DNA from: Lachnospiraceae bacterium
GTDB taxonomy: Bacteria; Bacillota; Clostridia; Lachnospirales; Lachnospiraceae
Reading direction: 5' to 3'
Length of the DNA stretch: 57,733 bases
NCBI GenBank assembly: GCA_017938485.1
Contig: JAGBBM010000048.1
Coordinates: 1 to 57,733, forward strand
A model generated the notes under the pieces. It was not told the DNA's origin. It did not search any database and was given only the letters and a program-made list of their open reading frames with translations. The position numbers and the translations under genes are program-made. Positions 679-8,164 of the stretch are shown here, in pieces. Position 1 is the stretch's first letter, and each line of letters opens with the position of its first letter.

Positions 679-1818
679 ATGTATCTGGTAGAAGATTTAT
701 TTGATAAAAGAAGTGTTGTTGGAATCAAATTAGAACAGTTTATGTTAGAAAAAGGGTGTACGAAAATAGAATTGTGTAAAAATACTGGAGTGTCTAGACC
801 TACTCTTGATAAATTATTATCAGGTACGCTGACTAACAAAACAAATTATGAAAAACATGTTAAGAAGGTATTAGAATATCTTGCAATTACACCTGATGTA
901 TTATTAGGGAATGTAAAGATTTCTTATAATAGGACTAGAGAATTAAAGAATATATTGAAAATATCATCAGATGAAATATCAGATATTACAGGTATTCCAT
1001 TGGAACGATTGAAAGATATAGAAGCGGGAAAAGAAGCAACTCTTGCAGAACTACGTGATATTGCTATGTGTCTTTCTGTGAGTGTAAACTGCTTGAAAGG
1101 GAGAAACTTTTTTGAGCCACAAATAAGTGAAATGGATTATTTTTTTGGAACAAATGATTCGAACTATTTTAGTGGATACTGGGGACATATTGGAGTAGCA
1201 ATAAATAATACGAATACATTTCATTGGTTTCCTATTGATAGAAACGTAAGAAAAATGTTATATGATGTATTGGATAATGAAAAAATTGTTGTCCCTTGTA
1301 TGAATAATAAGGTGTTATTATTGAACATGAATCATATCAAGGAAATAGTACTTTTGGATGAAGCGTGTGATCAGCCGAATTTTATAGAGTGGGATTATCA
1401 TGTTGACTGCGGTGAAATGCCTCTCGTGGTGTATGATGCATTAGAGGATTATGTATTATATGAAAACCATGATGATAAAGTATTATCAAAAAAAATGATA
1501 AAATTCTTAAGTGACTTAATGAAAAAAAAGTGTTGGACGGAAGAAGATGTAAATATGATAACTGACTTATCGAATATATATTATTCCGATGGTGTACAAA
1601 GGCCTTTGTATATCGATTTTACCCAAGATGAAACAATAACAGATGAAATTATGGATATATATATATATGAAGCTGCAGAATATAGTGAAAATATATTATA
1701 TTGTGAAGATACAGGAGGTGCGGAGATTATATTAAATATTAAAAATATTGCAATGATAGAAGCACCATTACTAAAGGTGGAAAATAAAGTATTGAAAAAG
1801 GAAGAAGACTTAATTTAA
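679..1818 (+). CDS. Double helix-turn-helix (XRE-like) protein next to the Abi toxin
   Basis: A 379-residue protein with two successive lambda-repressor-like HTH domains: about residues 15-75 (IELCKNTGVSRPTLDKLLSG) and 85-140 (DEISDITGIPLERLKDIEAG). A roughly 230-residue acidic C-terminal part resembles nothing I can name. The start at 679 is preferred over the ATG at 673 because AGGAGG (666-671) leaves 7 nt to 679 but only 1 nt to 673. The Abi_2 gene follows after 32 nt, so the two are probably one operon. The protein may be an autoregulator or a sensor part of the abortive-infection module. DNA binding is inferred from the HTH folds; the C-terminal role is unknown. Confidence 0.75.
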   Translation: MYLVEDLFDKRSVVGIKLEQFMLEKGCTKIELCKNTGVSRPTLDKLLSGTLTNKTNYEKHVKKVLEYLAITPDVLLGNVKISYNRTRELKNILKISSDEISDITGIPLERLKDIEAGKEATLAELRDIAMCLSVSVNCLKGRNFFEPQISEMDYFFGTNDSNYFSGYWGHIGVAINNTNTFHWFPIDRNVRKMLYDVLDNEKIVVPCMNNKVLLLNMNHIKEIVLLDEACDQPNFIEWDYHVDCGEMPLVVYDALEDYVLYENHDDKVLSKKMIKFLSDLMKKKCWTEEDVNMITDLSNIYYSDGVQRPLYIDFTQDETITDEIMDIYIYEAAEYSENILYCEDTGGAEIILNIKNIAMIEAPLLKVENKVLKKEEDLI

Positions 1819-1850
1819 ATAGCTCAATAGAACATATAGGAGATAAACTT

Positions 1851-2831
1851 ATGGGATATAAAACAATAGATGCACTGATGAGACATCTTCGTAAAAGTGG
1901 AATAGCTATTAAAGGTAGCACACAAAAACGCCAACTTATTAATACTGGTTATTTTCATGGCTATAAAGGGTATCGTTTTTTTGGAAATTCAAAAAGGCGA
2001 TTACCATTTACTTCTTACGAAGAGATTTATGCAACAATTCAATATGATTCACAGCTGAAAGCATTGATGTACGGCAAGATGATGTTTATTGAAACAGCTA
2101 TGAAGAATATTGCTCTAGAAAGTATTTTGGTAAACGCTAATTCAGAATACATACAGGATATGTATGATAGGGTTGTTAGCGGCTATAATAATGCACCATC
2201 AAATGCTACTGCAGAACAAAAAAAGAAGATGCAACAGAATAAACTTAATTTGCAGAATGCGATACAATCAAGTTTGGCATATGCGTACAAAAAGAACAAC
2301 CCCAAAATAACACATTTTTATAATAATGTAGGATATTCAGATGTTCCTGTATGGGCTTTGTTTGAGATAATGACTATGGGGGATTTGGGATATTTATTAT
2401 CGTGTCTTACATATGATGTTAGGGACGATATTTCAAAACGATTAGGGATAAATGTGTCTTGTGATACTGATAGGCAATTGATATATAAATACATATATAC
2501 TTTGAAAGATTTGCGTAATGCTATAGCACATAACGCAGTTGTATTTGATACCAGGTTTCGCAATATTGATCCAACAAGTGCAATGAAACAATGCCTAAAG
2601 CTTGATATAGGTTTGTCGTATGTCAATTTTAAAACCATAGGTGATTATATTATACTAATGTGTTATTATATGAAACTACTTGACACACCCAAAACGGAAA
2701 TAAGAGCATTTATAAGAGAATTTGAGAAAATAACAGATAATTACGTGAAATTGGTTAATACAAATGTTTCCGAGATTGTTATTCACCCAGATTTAAACGC
2801 AAGATTGGCAATATTAAAAAATTATATATAA
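1851..2831 (+). CDS. abiF: Abi_2 family (AbiD/AbiF-type) HEPN abortive-infection toxin
   Basis: A 326-residue protein with the family's N-terminal signature LINTGYFHGYKGYRFF near residue 30 and a C-terminal HEPN ribonuclease motif, R222-N-A-I-A-H227 (RX4H), in the context DLRNAIAHN. Abi_2 proteins mediate abortive phage infection. AbiF-type members are reported to be RNA-antitoxin-controlled toxins related to the ancestors of Cas13. AGGAGA precedes the ATG. It follows the double-HTH gene in an operon and is followed directly by a promoter and a two-hairpin candidate RNA (2870-2940), the arrangement expected of an AbiF module. RNA cleavage by this copy is inferred from the intact motif. The subgroup (AbiD versus AbiF) cannot be settled by eye. 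Confidence 0.88.
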   Translation: MGYKTIDALMRHLRKSGIAIKGSTQKRQLINTGYFHGYKGYRFFGNSKRRLPFTSYEEIYATIQYDSQLKALMYGKMMFIETAMKNIALESILVNANSEYIQDMYDRVVSGYNNAPSNATAEQKKKMQQNKLNLQNAIQSSLAYAYKKNNPKITHFYNNVGYSDVPVWALFEIMTMGDLGYLLSCLTYDVRDDISKRLGINVSCDTDRQLIYKYIYTLKDLRNAIAHNAVVFDTRFRNIDPTSAMKQCLKLDIGLSYVNFKTIGDYIILMCYYMKLLDTPKTEIRAFIREFEKITDNYVKLVNTNVSEIVIHPDLNARLAILKNYI

Positions 2832-2834
2832 ATC

Positions 2835-2863
2835 TTGAATTTTTCCGGCAAATGATGTATATT
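2835..2863 (+). promoter_or_regulatory. Promoter for the candidate antitoxin RNA
   Basis: TTGAAT (2835-2840), 17-bp spacer, TATATT (2858-2863), beginning 4 bases after the abi stop codon. An overlapping TATAAT (2863-2868) has poorer spacing. Transcription would start near 2870. Confidence 0.65.
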
Positions 2864-2869
2864 ATAATT

Positions 2870-2940
2870 AATAATTGGGGTATGTGTTTGCGGACGCATA
2901 CTTGAGAGAGTCGGAGAAATCCGGCTCTCTTGTGTTTTAG
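2870..2940 (+). ncRNA. Candidate AbiF-associated antitoxin RNA (two tandem hairpins)
   Basis: A gap of about 70 nt after the promoter holds two tight hairpins. Hairpin 1 pairs GTATGTG (2880-2886) with CGCATAC (2895-2901) around an 8-nt loop. Hairpin 2 is an 11-bp stem (2905-2915 with 2920-2930, one G.U pair) closed by a GAAA tetraloop (2916-2919) and followed by TGTGTTTT. The gap lacks an ORF. Position directly behind an Abi_2 gene, its own promoter and compact structure fit the conserved non-coding RNA reported for AbiF systems. The second hairpin could also serve as a terminator. No experimental or covariation evidence is available here. Confidence 0.6.
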
Positions 2941-2951
2941 GGATATATTTT

Positions 2952-4502
2952 ATGTACTTAGTGAGGGAAATTATGAAGAGGTCGTCAAAACCTTCTAAAA
3001 TTCAATATAATTTTTCGGGGAAGTGGGAGGATGTAAGTGATTTCCTCAGAAAATACTCTACGAATAATGTGTTAATGGAAATAAATAAAGAATCAACAGA
3101 TTTGTTTTTTAATAAGACTAACTCTGATGTTAAAGCTGTGAAAAGAGTAGAATTTCCGTTATATGGTAAGAGAAGTAGAATTCCACAAAAGCAAGAGGCT
3201 ATTATAATGGCATGGGCTTTAGTGGATTTAGCTTACTATATTATAAAAACCTCGAATGATTATAGAGGAAAGAATATAGAATTTGAACAAGAATTATATA
3301 TGCTTCAGATAGTAGTTGATACATATAAAGAAAGAGAAGAAAGCTTGTTTCTGGATGGTACTAAAGAAGATGAATCAGCAGATTTTTTCATGTATATATG
3401 GGGATTTGCGGGAGAACAGTTTAAATTTCAAAATCCTAAAATAGTATTTGATAATTTTTCTAGAGATTTGTATATGCTTTTGGAGTTGAATGAAACTAGT
3501 GTGTTTGATATAAAAAGTGCGATACAGGCGGAGATAGGTATGCCATGGGAAAAGGTGATAGCATATCTTATGATAGCATGGTACGGTTTTACGCAATCAA
3601 ATACAATGAAAGAATTAATTGGGAAGACTGTTTGGGGGGATTTGTACAAAAAAGATGAGTTTGAACAAGTCGTCAGTAGGTATACGGCTGATTATAAAAA
3701 AATACAAGAATCTGCTTTGGGAAGACAAATGTTATATGCAACCCCTTTTGTAAAAACCCAAAAGGGAGATATTGTATCTGTAAGTACATATTTGAATTTT
3801 TTTCTATGTGAGCATTGTATATTGTGGTTGGTAAGAGATTATTTTAATAAACAAGATAGTCAAGATTTTACAAATTACTTTGGTGGTTTGTTTGAAAGAT
3901 ACTTTGGTGAAATATTGGAGTTTTGTTTGCTGGAAAAAGAATATGAGCGTATTGAAGAATCCAACAATGATGAGCGAGCGGATTGGAAGTTATCTGTGGG
4001 AGAGTACAAATTTTTGGTTGAGCAAAAATCAACAGTTATGAGACTTTCTGCAAAGCAGCAGCAGACAGACGTAGAAGCTATAAAAGACTTTGCAAAAAGA
4101 ACTGTATTAAAGGCTATGAGTCAGTTGCATCACACAGAGAAACAATATAATGATGGGAAATATATAAAAATAATCTTATTATATGAGGACTATTTGAATC
4201 CTGCTTTGCTAGATAAAATTGCAAGTATGCCAGAGTGTAAGGTTGATAATGACAATTATTTTTGGATAGTTACAATTGAAGAAATGGAAATGCTTTTGAA
4301 TTTAGCTAGGTGTGATAGGGAGTTATTTAATATAATAATTGAAGAAAAAATAGACCGAGAAATTAATCATTCATTGGCAGGTAAGAGTATTATGCAATTG
4401 CTTAATGAGAAAGGTGTAAGAAAGAATGAATACATAAAGCAGGAAATATTTCGTAAGTATAGTAATATTGTTCAGAATAAAATAAGAGAAATATTGGTTT
4501 AG
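2952..4502 (+). CDS. Putative PD-(D/E)XK-like nuclease of a defence island
   Basis: A 516-residue protein that I cannot assign to a named family. Around residues 308-360 it shows an acidic helix (GLFERYFGEILEF), then D344 in RADWKL and E357-x-K359 in FLVEQKST. This D...ExK layout is that of the restriction-endonuclease fold, so DNA cleavage is a reasonable inference. The rest is helical with conserved-looking Trp and Tyr residues. ATG 2952 has AGGGA 8 nt upstream. ATG 2973, with GAGGGA 4 nt upstream, is an equally possible start. It lies between the Abi module and two other unknown genes and shares their high AT content, which fits a phage-defence effector acquired by transfer. Confidence 0.5.
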   Translation: MYLVREIMKRSSKPSKIQYNFSGKWEDVSDFLRKYSTNNVLMEINKESTDLFFNKTNSDVKAVKRVEFPLYGKRSRIPQKQEAIIMAWALVDLAYYIIKTSNDYRGKNIEFEQELYMLQIVVDTYKEREESLFLDGTKEDESADFFMYIWGFAGEQFKFQNPKIVFDNFSRDLYMLLELNETSVFDIKSAIQAEIGMPWEKVIAYLMIAWYGFTQSNTMKELIGKTVWGDLYKKDEFEQVVSRYTADYKKIQESALGRQMLYATPFVKTQKGDIVSVSTYLNFFLCEHCILWLVRDYFNKQDSQDFTNYFGGLFERYFGEILEFCLLEKEYERIEESNNDERADWKLSVGEYKFLVEQKSTVMRLSAKQQQTDVEAIKDFAKRTVLKAMSQLHHTEKQYNDGKYIKIILLYEDYLNPALLDKIASMPECKVDNDNYFWIVTIEEMEMLLNLARCDRELFNIIIEEKIDREINHSLAGKSIMQLLNEKGVRKNEYIKQEIFRKYSNIVQNKIREILV

Positions 4503-4576
4503 TTTATGGTGAGATATTTGATGTATGGTGTATAAGAGTAAGGGATGTATATTAGTTAGATAAGGGGAGATGAATG

Positions 4577-6007
4577 ATGCAAATTACGACTTTTTCGTTT
4601 GATTTTGATGAGACAAGAACTAAAGAAGTTCGTAAGGCGATAGATGAAAGATCAAACTTTGCTATACAGACAGAAAACACAGTTAGTGTTAAAGAAATGA
4701 GAGATAAACCTAATTCGGGTTACAAGAGAACAAGTAAAAAAGTATGGGGGTATGATGCTATTTATGCTTCATTAAATAGAATTGAAGATACATTGCATTA
4801 TATTAATTCGCTAGAATTAGGATCAGAAGATGCAAGAAAGCAAAGAAGTGCATTCGATTTTTTTGATTTTATAAATAATATGTATGTAATAATTCACTGT
4901 ATCCAAACACTGGGACATGTTTTTAATGTGAATCAAGATGAGTACAAACGAATCGAATTGGCAACGGATTGTTTTAATCAGCCTGGAATTACTGGGAATG
5001 GAAATGATAATGATTTTTTTGAATATGTTCGTTCGTTAGTATCGGTACATCCTGTAGAAACGGGGATGCATCCAGAATATCATGGATATGGAAAAATCCA
5101 TTGTTCTCCGTTTGCGGTGTGGACTATAGATGGACTCAGAGATGCAGACTTAAGTGTTCATATCTATACTGCTGAAAGAGGTGAGGATATAGAAACATTG
5201 CCATTGTGGGTTAATCAATTTGAAGCATATTTGAACAAGTGGATTGATTTCATTGATGTTATTGTGAAAGCCATAAAGAAATATAATGAAGAAATGACAT
5301 TAGATTATAAACAACGATTGATTTTGGAAGCTGATGAGTTTAATTCCTATGATAAATACATTGATAATTTGCGTAATGAATTAGTTATAAGAGTTGGAGA
5401 ATACACAGATTATTATCTAAAATATTATGCAAGAATATTTAGGATGGAATTGACAGAGGCAGCAAATAAGCATAAGTTTGACTTATATAAAAATGCTATA
5501 CGATATAGTTTGGGATTTCTACATAAACGATTACAAAATATGGATGTTGATGATGCGACTAATACAGGGATTATATGGCCAGATAGAGGTCTTGAAACTG
5601 AACTTTACATTGAGTTATGGAAACCTCGTAATGTAAAAAGTGAAATTAGTCAATATGGCTACGAGCTGGAAAAGATGAGTTATATTGATGGTAGTGGTGG
5701 ATATAATGAGCAGTATGGAAGAAGGTTATTAGATAAAATAAAGCCGATTATTAATAAATATGTTATATTTAAAAATGAAGAACCACCTTTTGAAACACAA
5801 GTTTTAGTTAGCATGGCAATGTATTTTGAGAGTTTTGGATATCAGAATTTGATTAATAGAAATATCCCTAATACACTAGAATTTAGAGAAGTTGTTATTT
5901 CTGATGATGAATGGGAGTTACTTATTAAGAACGAAACAACTCAAAAAGATAGAGAAAACAAATTGCGTAAATTTTTAAAAGATAATGAAATTAATGTAAG
6001 CAAATAG
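4577..6007 (+). CDS. Uncharacterised helical protein with a possible HEPN motif
   Basis: A 476-residue, largely helical and Tyr/Asn-rich protein without a domain I can name firmly. The segment YVRSLVSVHPVET contains R-X5-H, which falls within the spacing allowed for HEPN ribonucleases, and is followed by further His residues (GMHPEYHGYGKIH). ATG 4577 is chosen because GGGGAGA (4564-4570) leaves 6 nt to it and only 3 nt to the ATG at 4574. It sits 71 nt after the nuclease-like gene and 73 nt before the membrane protein gene. A role in phage defence is inferred from position only. Confidence 0.5.
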   Translation: MQITTFSFDFDETRTKEVRKAIDERSNFAIQTENTVSVKEMRDKPNSGYKRTSKKVWGYDAIYASLNRIEDTLHYINSLELGSEDARKQRSAFDFFDFINNMYVIIHCIQTLGHVFNVNQDEYKRIELATDCFNQPGITGNGNDNDFFEYVRSLVSVHPVETGMHPEYHGYGKIHCSPFAVWTIDGLRDADLSVHIYTAERGEDIETLPLWVNQFEAYLNKWIDFIDVIVKAIKKYNEEMTLDYKQRLILEADEFNSYDKYIDNLRNELVIRVGEYTDYYLKYYARIFRMELTEAANKHKFDLYKNAIRYSLGFLHKRLQNMDVDDATNTGIIWPDRGLETELYIELWKPRNVKSEISQYGYELEKMSYIDGSGGYNEQYGRRLLDKIKPIINKYVIFKNEEPPFETQVLVSMAMYFESFGYQNLINRNIPNTLEFREVVISDDEWELLIKNETTQKDRENKLRKFLKDNEINVSK

Positions 6008-6080
6008 TTATAGAAGAGATTAATTAAGATTCGCGCTTTTAGGTTTACAATTGTAAAATTATTTTGTGAAAAGGAAAGGA

Positions 6081-6911
6081 ATGAGAGCAATGGATAAAAA
6101 ATCAATTATTAATGTTGGTTTAATTACTGTTTTTGTAGCATCGTTGTTAGCATTTATATTGAATATTTTATTTAAAATTAAGTCAGATAGTATTTTTTCA
6201 GCTGAATGGCAGGCTGGAGATGCACTTGGTTATGTAGCAAGTGTATTTGGAGCGGTAGGAACAATAATTTTAGGATATGTTGCATATAAACAGAATGGAA
6301 AGCTTCAAGAATTGGAAAGTAATAATTACATAGCAAATTATAGTGCTTTAGTGTTAATGAACGAAGTGCATATAAAGGGAAAAGCTAATGTTCCTGTAAA
6401 CTGGAGCGAGCATTCTGAGCAGATAATAGTGGATGCTGATGTTAAGAGTGAATCTGGATATGTTGGATATGATTTTACCTTTGTAGCAACTGGTGTAGGT
6501 AATGCGACACCGGCGTTATTACATATTAAAGAGTGCAATGTTTTTTGTGGTGACGATGAAAAAAAGAATATGAGTAGTTATCTGTTTGGTAAAAATTATG
6601 CTGATGTTTATTCTAGAGTAGCAATACATAAGGATAATAAAATAAAATTCGGAATGACATATATTGTAGATAAAAATAAAAAAGATGCTTTTGAAAAATC
6701 GATTAAGCAAAATGCTTATAATGTTATTGTAGAAGTTGTATTTTATATTGTGACAGATAAAAATGTTATTACAAAGTGTAAGTGTCGTTCGTATTGTAAT
6801 GGGCAAAATCAAAATGATAATATTAGATGGGAAGATAAGGATCCTATGGTTTTCTTCTATGGTCATGATATAGCTGATGTAAGGAGTATGAAGATTTCGG
6901 GAGAGGAATAG
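6081..6911 (+). CDS. Two-TM membrane protein with soluble C-terminal domain
   Basis: About 276 residues. Two N-terminal membrane helices (one following KKSIINVGLI, one at LGYVASVFGAVGTIILGYVA) are joined by a short loop, followed by about 190 soluble residues with several Cys. This two-helix layout with the DALGYVASVFGAVGT-like second helix recurs in membrane proteins of defence islands, where such proteins can act as pore-forming effectors; that role is inference. The ATG at 6081 (AAGGA 5 nt upstream) or 6090 is preferred over the GTG at 6066, which has no ribosome site. It is the last gene of the AT-rich island. Confidence 0.5.
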   Translation: MRAMDKKSIINVGLITVFVASLLAFILNILFKIKSDSIFSAEWQAGDALGYVASVFGAVGTIILGYVAYKQNGKLQELESNNYIANYSALVLMNEVHIKGKANVPVNWSEHSEQIIVDADVKSESGYVGYDFTFVATGVGNATPALLHIKECNVFCGDDEKKNMSSYLFGKNYADVYSRVAIHKDNKIKFGMTYIVDKNKKDAFEKSIKQNAYNVIVEVVFYIVTDKNVITKCKCRSYCNGQNQNDNIRWEDKDPMVFFYGHDIADVRSMKISGEE

Positions 6912-7246: not shown

Positions 7247-8164
7247 ATGACACTAGCGGACAAACTATTCAACTGTTTCAAGAAACAAGATTCCTTCACT
7301 TTAACCGATGCCTACAAGGCAAATCGTGAGAAACCAAGAGAAACTGTCCGAGCAAGGATATATGATAATTTGGGTATCCGTTTTGAAAGAATAGCCAAGG
7401 GAGTGTATAAAACCCTTGATTCGAATGAAGCTTGTGTACTTTTAGAGGGTGACGGAAGAGACCTTTCTATGCTTGAAGATAATAGCATTGACTGTATTTT
7501 TACAGACCATCCATGGTTAGATTTAAAATCGAACAAGGGAGGTACAAGAGCATTCGCCCAGTACGAATGTTTTAAGTATACCTTAGAAGACTTCAAGGAA
7601 AAGGCAAGAGTGCTTAAGGATGGTTGCTTTTTGGTAGAGATACTCCCGGCAGAGAATGAAAATAACTACGAATATCTGTATCAAATAAAGCAATATGCAA
7701 AAGAGGCAGGATTCATATACTATTCAAAAGTTCCATGGAAAAAAGGAACCTTTGTGAGTAACACCGGGCGTAAGGCAAAGAACACACAGGATGTTATGAT
7801 ATTTTCAAAAGGGAAGGCGAGAAGCATGCGGTATGACAAGAAAAAGTCAGATGCTACAGGTAAGCCTTGTTATATGAGTGGATGTAACGGTATGCTACCC
7901 ACTATGTTTGATGTACAACCTGTGCCTAAGAACAAGAAAATACATCAAAGCGAATTGCCATTGTCTCTATGTGAACGGATATTGCAATACGTTACATATG
8001 AAGATGAAGTTGTTCTGGATTCCTTTGCGGGTAGTGGAGTTATAGGAGAGGCTGCTTTAAATACAAAGCGAAGTTGTATTTTGATCGAAATACTGAAAGA
8101 AAATATCGAAAAGATAAAAAAGCGATTTGAAGGAAATATATTATTTCAACCAATGATGGAATGA
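7247..8164 (+). CDS. Orphan beta-class DNA methyltransferase with N-terminal winged-helix-like domain
   Basis: A 305-residue protein. The catalytic motif comes first (FTDHPW, residues 85-90, a DPPW variant with His) and the AdoMet-binding motif last (DSFAGSG near 258-264). This order marks the beta class of N6-adenine/N4-cytosine methylases. Residues 1-57 look like a small winged-helix domain ending in the strand FERIAKGVYKTL, which could contribute DNA recognition. AAGGAGATG precedes the ATG. No endonuclease gene is adjacent, so it is either a solitary methylase or a mobile-element modification enzyme. The His in the catalytic motif is unusual and activity should not be assumed. Confidence 0.75.
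   Translation: MTLADKLFNCFKKQDSFTLTDAYKANREKPRETVRARIYDNLGIRFERIAKGVYKTLDSNEACVLLEGDGRDLSMLEDNSIDCIFTDHPWLDLKSNKGGTRAFAQYECFKYTLEDFKEKARVLKDGCFLVEILPAENENNYEYLYQIKQYAKEAGFIYYSKVPWKKGTFVSNTGRKAKNTQDVMIFSKGKARSMRYDKKKSDATGKPCYMSGCNGMLPTMFDVQPVPKNKKIHQSELPLSLCERILQYVTYEDEVVLDSFAGSGVIGEAALNTKRSCILIEILKENIEKIKKRFEGNILFQPMME

Follow-up and report, generated by a model that had tools for sequence, protein, structure and literature searches.

A conserved two-hairpin RNA directly behind AbiF-type toxin genes, with toxin-free copies in phages, is a candidate RNA antitoxin

The abi_2 locus

The analysed stretch of DNA (the window) comprises 57,733 nucleotides (nt) of Lachnospiraceae bacterium (assembly GCA_017938485.1, contig JAGBBM010000048.1, forward strand). 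On this DNA of a gut-type bacterium lies a gene for a putative AbiF-type HEPN toxin, abi_2, which is directly followed by a predicted small RNA (Table 1). The gene product matches the Pfam family Abi_2 (PF07751) with 107.5 bits (E 1.3e-30), exceeding the curated cut-off of 25.6, and the PADLOC profile AbiD with an E-value of 1e-26. A first-pass annotation of the sequence had described an intact RX4H motif; the motif is present, and R222, N223 and H227 are invariant in a protein alignment of 42 rows (A3). An N-terminal GYFHGYKGY stretch is common to the same rows, with eight of its nine positions invariant. Comparison of the A3 profile with solved chains gave a single match at E ≤ 1, to PDB 8vz6 (‘Abi family protein’, E 3.5e-10). 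The source genome, which is 87.6% complete, contains abi_2 as a single-copy gene.

The promoter and the two clean hairpins, one closed by GAAA, that the same annotation had placed behind the gene were both recovered. The promoter begins 3 nt past the toxin stop codon. The segment 2870-2951 folds as two hairpins, the second of which (2904-2931) holds the GAAA loop, with -32 kcal/mol (z -5.83; none of 200 shuffled sequences folded as well). Hairpin 1 has a UGCG loop, which we take to be of the UNCG type, and across relatives this loop is mostly UNCG-like. Hairpin 2 is the single terminator-like site found in 1700-3100, where 0.3 would be expected. To describe the RNA, a covariance model (R1) was trained on 34 sequences; the window RNA is one of the training rows, so its match in Table 1 arises by construction. 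The source genome holds one strong R1 copy, and the next best match reaches 22.9 bits.

Table 1. Features of the abi_2 locus (positions in the window)
Feature	Position	Strand	Basis
Abi_2/AbiF-type HEPN protein, 326 amino acids, proposed RNase toxin (predicted from sequence)	1851..2831	+	Pfam, PADLOC, profile matches
HEPN RX4H motif, R222-NAIA-H227 (RNAIAH, residues 222-227)	2514..2531	+	translation; alignment A3
Sigma-70-type promoter TTGAAT-17-TATATT of the small RNA (predicted)	2835..2863	+	sequence; conserved position
Small RNA, ~68 nt (model R1), proposed RNA antitoxin (by analogy)	2871..2938	+	cmsearch 81.9 bits, E 2.2e-24
Hairpin 1, UGCG loop at 2889-2892	2878..2903	+	folding; alignment; covariation
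Hairpin 2 with GAAA loop, followed by a T-rich tail; proposed to act as intrinsic terminator and as a second element of the antitoxin	2904..2939	+	folding; covariation

Conservation and covariation behind related toxin genes

Relatives of the toxin gene were sought in 200 genomes of the family, 38 of which gave a match, in viral contigs (2 loci) and in GTDB contigs (80 of 91 loci kept). This gave 91 loci of at least 31% identity including the window itself (L001); some contigs are present twice and several genes are broken or truncated. Three loci (L032, L083 and L085) end right behind the gene, leaving 88 with downstream DNA. An R1 match (E below 1e-6) was found behind the gene in 87 of these 88 loci, where the matches of L027 (30.9 bits) and L079 (38.1 bits) are weak and those of the training sequences arise by construction. 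A gapless consensus score made before R1 reached at least 0.62 in 82 of the 91 loci, compared with 0.618 for the best shuffled control. The loci under this value are the three without downstream DNA, L027, L107 and the variant RNAs L005, L007, L095 and L105. This score, and then the covariance model, took the place of an early regular expression that had missed many loci. The RNA-bearing toxin loci come from records named Lachnospiraceae, Selenomonas, Veillonella, Faecalibacterium, Gardnerella, Fusobacteriaceae and Thermoleophilia, among others. Among 15 loci below 31% identity, 14 of which are full-length frames, no R1 match at E ≤ 0.01 was observed.

As the first-pass annotation had proposed, the segments behind homologous Abi_2 genes were aligned; both hairpins are kept and the stems covary. 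L027, L032, L079, L083, L085, L107 and 8 loci with duplicate RNA were left out of the RNA alignments. In alignment A1 (59 rows), 97.4% of the cells are paired, and both-sided changes occur at 15 of 21 pairs, including 9 of the 10 pairs of hairpin 2. Two-sided changes were counted in 92 cells versus 23.3 in shuffles, and none of 500 shuffles was as high in each of five measures. When the partner was slid by 1-3 columns, pairing fell to 30-50%. The 34 diverse rows of alignment A2 gave a similar picture (95.4% paired; both-sided changes at 15 of 19 pairs; none of 500 shuffles as high), and RNAalifold returned essentially the same two stems with double changes at 14 of 17 pairs. The rows are related and hence not independent, which the slid control addresses only in part. 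The most conserved part of the RNA is hairpin 1, flanked by AAUUG and CUUGAG. By eye, RNAs of type A accompany proteins of about 49% identity or more, and RNAs of type B, in which hairpin 1 is split, accompany proteins that are mostly 35-41% identical; L005/L007, L095 and L105/L109 are variants.

The position of the promoter is conserved

A match to the promoter consensus was rejected as evidence by itself, because the region 1700-3100 contains 8 promoter-like sites where shuffling predicts 8.4; when matches were counted without regard to position, real and shuffled sequences could not be told apart. A score of position did tell them apart; it required TTG at -35 and TANNNT at 5-12 nt ahead of the RNA. 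This pattern is present in 80 of 82 toxin-linked loci, which represent 74 distinct RNAs, with 3.9 expected from shuffles. This fixed distance before hairpin 1 bears on the reading that hairpin 2 is merely the terminator of abi_2 and hairpin 1 an element of its 3′ untranslated region, with no separate small RNA. Although hairpin 2 is terminator-like and lies right behind the gene, we hold this to be very improbable, since hairpin 1 and its flanks are the most conserved part and a promoter precedes them at a kept position. Copies of the RNA with no Abi_2 upstream, in bacteria and in viral records, and the persistence of hairpin 2 in phage copies with short T runs (both described below) argue in the same direction.

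The RNA differs from the known abiF RNA

The first-pass annotation had linked the segment to the conserved non-coding RNA already reported for AbiF toxins. This identification did not hold: the covariance model of RF03085 (abiF RNA) gave no match at E ≤ 10 in 1700-3100 or at E ≤ 5 in ten relatives. No family of Rfam 15 matches the RNA when the whole window is searched at gathering score. At E ≤ 10, the region 1700-3100 gave four hits (E 0.2-4.9), of which BTnc231 (E 0.87) overlaps the RNA and lies far below its cut-off. RF03085 resembles R1 in being a small RNA beside some Abi_2 genes, but has 37 positions, one bulged hairpin and a different sequence. Since neither RF03085 nor any other Rfam 15 family matches, the RNA is a new partner for the AbiF branch; on sequence grounds it is a different family from RF03085, not represented in Rfam 15 within the searches made, and tied to a separate Abi_2 clade. 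Its predicted geometry, downstream of the toxin gene with its own promoter and in single copy, is likewise new for AbiF toxins. Among the papers listed by literature searches, no title or abstract opening describes the R1 RNA or AbiF antitoxin RNAs in phage tRNA arrays; an earlier description of either in Zilberzwige-Tal et al. 2025 is possible.

In type III toxin-antitoxin systems of the ToxIN layout, an antitoxin RNA of tandem repeats lies upstream of the toxin. The Abi_2 module differs in having a single RNA downstream of it. Closer to our case is AbiF-Cd/RCd22 of Clostridioides difficile phi027, where, according to PMC12373285, the toxic AbiF is bound by a small RNA that is able to neutralise it in trans. 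Both systems combine an Abi_2 HEPN toxin carrying RX4H with a structured small RNA that has its own promoter and terminator beside the gene, which in our case are predicted. As described in the same source, RCd22 lies upstream, contains two RF03085 motifs and reads through into abiF, whereas R1 is downstream, single, and different in sequence and structure. Lying behind the toxin gene, R1 would be in no position for the cis attenuation that RCd22 exerts, and control would act through binding. PDB 8vz6 is PbAbiF with its RNA, an RNA-inhibited HEPN dimer in the account of a review (PMC12737573). The profile match to this chain places Abi_2 in the same protein superfamily as PbAbiF-AbiFr; the protein sequences are distant, and the comparison was one of protein profiles.

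AbiF is placed near the root of Cas13 in the relevant parts of PMC12165695 and the review PMC12737573, and R1 has a strongly conserved hairpin handle. The RNA could thus be a guide or activator of the HEPN protein, as in a Cas13-like RNA-guided RNase, instead of an antitoxin. We give this reading marginally less credit than even the terminator reading, because the alignments contain no variable spacer-like segment, phages that carry the RNA alone fit an inhibitor better than an activator, and the nearest characterised relative uses its RNA as antitoxin.

Toxin-free copies in phages

Viral contigs were scanned with three patterns, and the resulting 29 loci all match R1 (weakest match 34.8 bits). 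A PF07751 protein was found in 4 of the 29 whole viral records; the other 25 encode no Abi_2. The toxin-bearing records are L182, a close relative on the contig of L031, and the look-alike records L163, L165 and L167 with one divergent toxin. Collapsing the 25 toxin-free records by eye (identical RNA and flank) left 18 distinct orphans. Among named phages, one record has a 27-nt partial match to the RNA.

The orphans retain the structure. Two base pairs that the third search pattern had left free are paired in 30 of 30 tests on 15 distinct cores (13 orphans and 2 from toxin-bearing records; the phages are partly related and thus not independent cases). In each of the 18 orphans, the minimum-energy fold contains hairpin 1, with weak z values for L174, L172 and L173. 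Most orphans also retain a hairpin 2 of new sequence (weak z in L173 and L179; absent in L183). The longest T run behind it is at most 3 in 11 of the 18 orphans, including L183, compared with 17 of 74 distinct toxin-linked RNAs, and because of these short T runs hairpin 2 seems to matter beyond termination. A positional promoter precedes only 1 of the 18 orphans (0.8 expected). Twenty proteins from 15 orphan contigs, L162, L174 and L184 not being among them, all match PHROGs, including terminases, tail fibres, primase, endolysin and exonucleases, in line with a phage origin of these contigs.

Some features of single phage loci were noted. Among the 15 sampled contigs, an ‘exonuclease’ gene (PHROG 284 or 704) recurs on those of L170, L172, L164, L179 and L178, and in L170 and L172 it ends at the RNA or a few nt before it. 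In L184 (1018-1128, minus strand), hairpin 1 is duplicated in tandem within a phage stretch with 7 tRNAs. By eye, a second promoter-like plus hairpin small RNA with the core GGTGCCTGTCTCCGGTTCC lies immediately before R1 in the toxin-free phage L166 (4620-4850, minus strand) and in L163 (6400-6600, plus strand), the phage with a divergent Abi_2; it is perhaps a third antitoxin RNA type.

tRNA genes and RF03085-type RNAs beside the phage copies

Many phage orphans adjoin tRNA genes. A same-strand tRNA lies within 250 nt of 8 of the 18 distinct orphans, compared with a mean of 1.4 and a maximum of 4 in 400 draws in which positions were redrawn within the same loci. For a limit of 30 nt, the count is 4 of 18 (random mean 0.8, maximum 3), and for 100 nt it is 5 of 18 (mean 1.1, maximum 5), so that here the best of the 400 draws equals the observed value. 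The tRNA starts within 2 nt of the R1 model end in L164 and L181 and 3 nt after it in L189, and in L177 a tRNA-like CCA end, seen by eye, precedes the RNA. Where a tRNA abuts the RNA, RNase P processing would cut the RNA free.

Two loci combine both RNA types. In L179, the order is R1 RNA, RF03085-type RNA (40.3 bits) and tRNA-like gene; in the bacterial locus G086:C20 (L157/L210), it is R1-like, RF03085-like (44 bits) and R1. The RF03085-like hairpin of L210 was missed by cmscan at E ≤ 1 and found with a model (R2) built from 14 RF03085 hits. In 59 sources, R2 matches at E ≤ 0.1 were obtained only for these two loci and for L173, where the second RNA is weak (16.8 bits, E 0.078). Scanning for the RF03085 core picked out 58 viral loci, with PF07751 in one of the 58 records, and like R1 this core is thus found in viral records without Abi_2 (57 of 58). 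A same-strand tRNA, once a tmRNA, lies within 200 nt in 17 of the 58 loci (random mean 1.35, maximum 5). One of these loci, L239, also holds an R1 match (39.7 bits).

Bacterial copies without the toxin

R1 was run with strict filters against 397 genomes of the family, and matches of at least 45 bits were kept; many weaker ones are probably noise. Among the 45 strong copies, the Abi_2 gene within 1400 nt upstream is intact in 10 (including the window's own and the divergent Abi_2 of G227), broken or partial in 8 and absent in 27. For 5 of the 27 toxin-free copies the upstream sequence is shorter than 700 nt, and the copy in G315 probably belongs to a module that is divided among contigs. The 27 copies sit in 25 genomes; a PF07751 search of 24 of them (not G103) gave no match anywhere in 15 and a match in 9, and over all 32 genomes the search gave 20 without and 12 with a match. 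Host orphans have a positional promoter in 14 of 26 cases (1.1 expected). In 299 genomes of the phylum, the RNA (E ≤ 1e-8) occurs in 8 besides the source genome, with Abi_2 beside it in 4 of the 8 (3-kb loci); plasmids gave no match to the RNA. RF03085 RNAs show a similar pattern: in 15 host loci (at most 1.5 kb of flank), they have an intact Abi_2 close by in 4, a broken one in 1 and none in 10.

The broken genes, the promoters retained by many host orphans and a duplicated RNA with promoter-like upstream sequence in L199 would be in keeping with toxin-free copies being decaying relics or hitch-hiking repeats, without present function. We consider this unlikely, though it deserves more weight than the terminator and guide readings, since the phage orphans keep their stems even without a promoter, many of them adjoin tRNA genes, and L179 holds a second type of antitoxin RNA in tandem with its R1 RNA.

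In L199, the RNA and nearly identical upstream sequence are duplicated about 4 kb apart (4042-4104 and 8021-8083); an intact Abi_2 precedes the second copy only. The host orphans L145, L138 and L153 lie near an AbiEii toxin, an ORF6N-domain protein and a Tn916-type integrase, that is, in defence or mobile surroundings.

A putative toxin-RNA antitoxin module and its phage-borne RNA

The first-pass annotation had suggested a complete toxin-RNA antitoxin system. The conserved, covarying RNA behind related Abi_2 genes supports this proposal, the supposed identity with the known abiF RNA does not stand, and the antitoxin role is assigned by analogy. By this analogy the R1 RNA is probably the antitoxin of Abi_2, a reading that is strengthened by the toxin-free RNA copies of phages. 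We regard it as highly likely that the locus is a complete type III-like module in which the HEPN RNase Abi_2 is held inactive by its own RNA. From family and motif, Abi_2 would be an HEPN RNase toxin. The RNA of about 68 nt would start from its own promoter right after the toxin gene and terminate at hairpin 2, and would bind the Abi_2 protein and keep it inactive. Upon shut-off or degradation of host transcription by a phage, or upon loss of the locus, the RNA would disappear; with its supply gone, the RNase would be freed and growth would stop. Phage copies of the RNA may then be mimics that neutralise the toxin and prevent it from acting while infection proceeds.

Several observations weigh against this interpretation. 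L107, which is 37% identical, has no R1 match. The divergent Abi_2 of L143, unlike the 15 other loci below 31% identity, has an R1 RNA right behind it, and the divergent phage Abi_2 of L163/L165/L167 has one about 125 nt behind; because of these cases, proximity alone does not prove cognate pairing. The viral records may be fragments. In the type B phage copies L174, L172 and L173, the fold of hairpin 1 alone is no better than that of shuffles (z -0.3 to -1.0), and the bacterial orphans could be relics of dead modules, given that a broken Abi_2 precedes 8 of the 45 copies. As for L107, a single hairpin-like stretch (GAGCCATGCG...GGATTCATGGCT) with a T run was seen by eye behind its Abi_2 (5010-5045), and perhaps this is a reduced form of the RNA.

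The presence of the RNA without the toxin in phage sequences suggests that phages disarm the toxin with RNA, and the phage orphans are probably RNA anti-AbiF devices. Two precedents are the pseudo-ToxI of PhiTE, a phage RNA that mimics the antitoxin of ToxIN and disarms it (PMC3475682), and Racr RNAs, phage-carried mimics of CRISPR repeats that disarm CRISPR-Cas (PMC10651486). As in these cases, the RNA component is encoded by the phage and the defence protein is not, bearing in mind the possible fragments. In contrast to them, the putative R1 mimic often lies beside phage tRNA genes and would target AbiF toxins. Cyanophage S-CREM1 is reported to carry an RF03085 RNA that its authors regard as probably functional during infection (PMC9964418; review PMC12197685); the passages on it in these two sources do not name an antitoxin role.

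With somewhat better than even confidence, we further propose that phage tRNA clusters harbour small arrays of antitoxin RNAs, directed at several AbiF classes. These would comprise at least two unrelated families (R1 and RF03085), sometimes adjacent, released by phage transcription and tRNA processing, and would form a widespread RNA-only counter-defence against the Cas13-founding toxin lineage; bacterial toxin-free collections would be anti-addiction devices. The toxin-RNA module is a further form of AbiF toxin-RNA systems, and the proposed phage arrays are the novel case. Because AbiF toxins are the proposed forerunners of Cas13, a second RNA partner family with a new gene order for them is relevant to the question of how guide RNAs could arise from inhibitor RNAs. 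In the toxin-free phage copies, a possible RNA counter-defence can be read from sequence and put directly to the test. These copies also suggest that part of some phage tRNA arrays may be kept for purposes besides translation. The RNA type carried may also serve as a handle for guessing which AbiF class a phage meets.

Neighbouring genes

Directly upstream of abi_2 lies a gene for a Cro/C1-type helix-turn-helix protein (673-1818). The open reading frame 2952-4502 behind the RNA matches the GapS1 antiphage family weakly (E 2.1e-9, 36.8 bits, cut-off 320). Five window genes were compared with 82 fetched relatives (L031-L112), each with at most about 4 kb of flank. For the helix-turn-helix gene, the GapS1-like gene and the reading frames 4574-6007 and 6066-6911, no tblastn match at E ≤ 1e-5 was found, and the methyltransferase gene had a match near one relative only (L033). 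The upstream helix-turn-helix gene and the downstream genes were thus ruled out as parts of the module, and since window neighbours recur near only 1 of 82 relatives, the toxin and the RNA form the unit. Together with a DNA methylase at 7247-8164, the GapS1-like reading frame gives this contig end the look of a small defence island.
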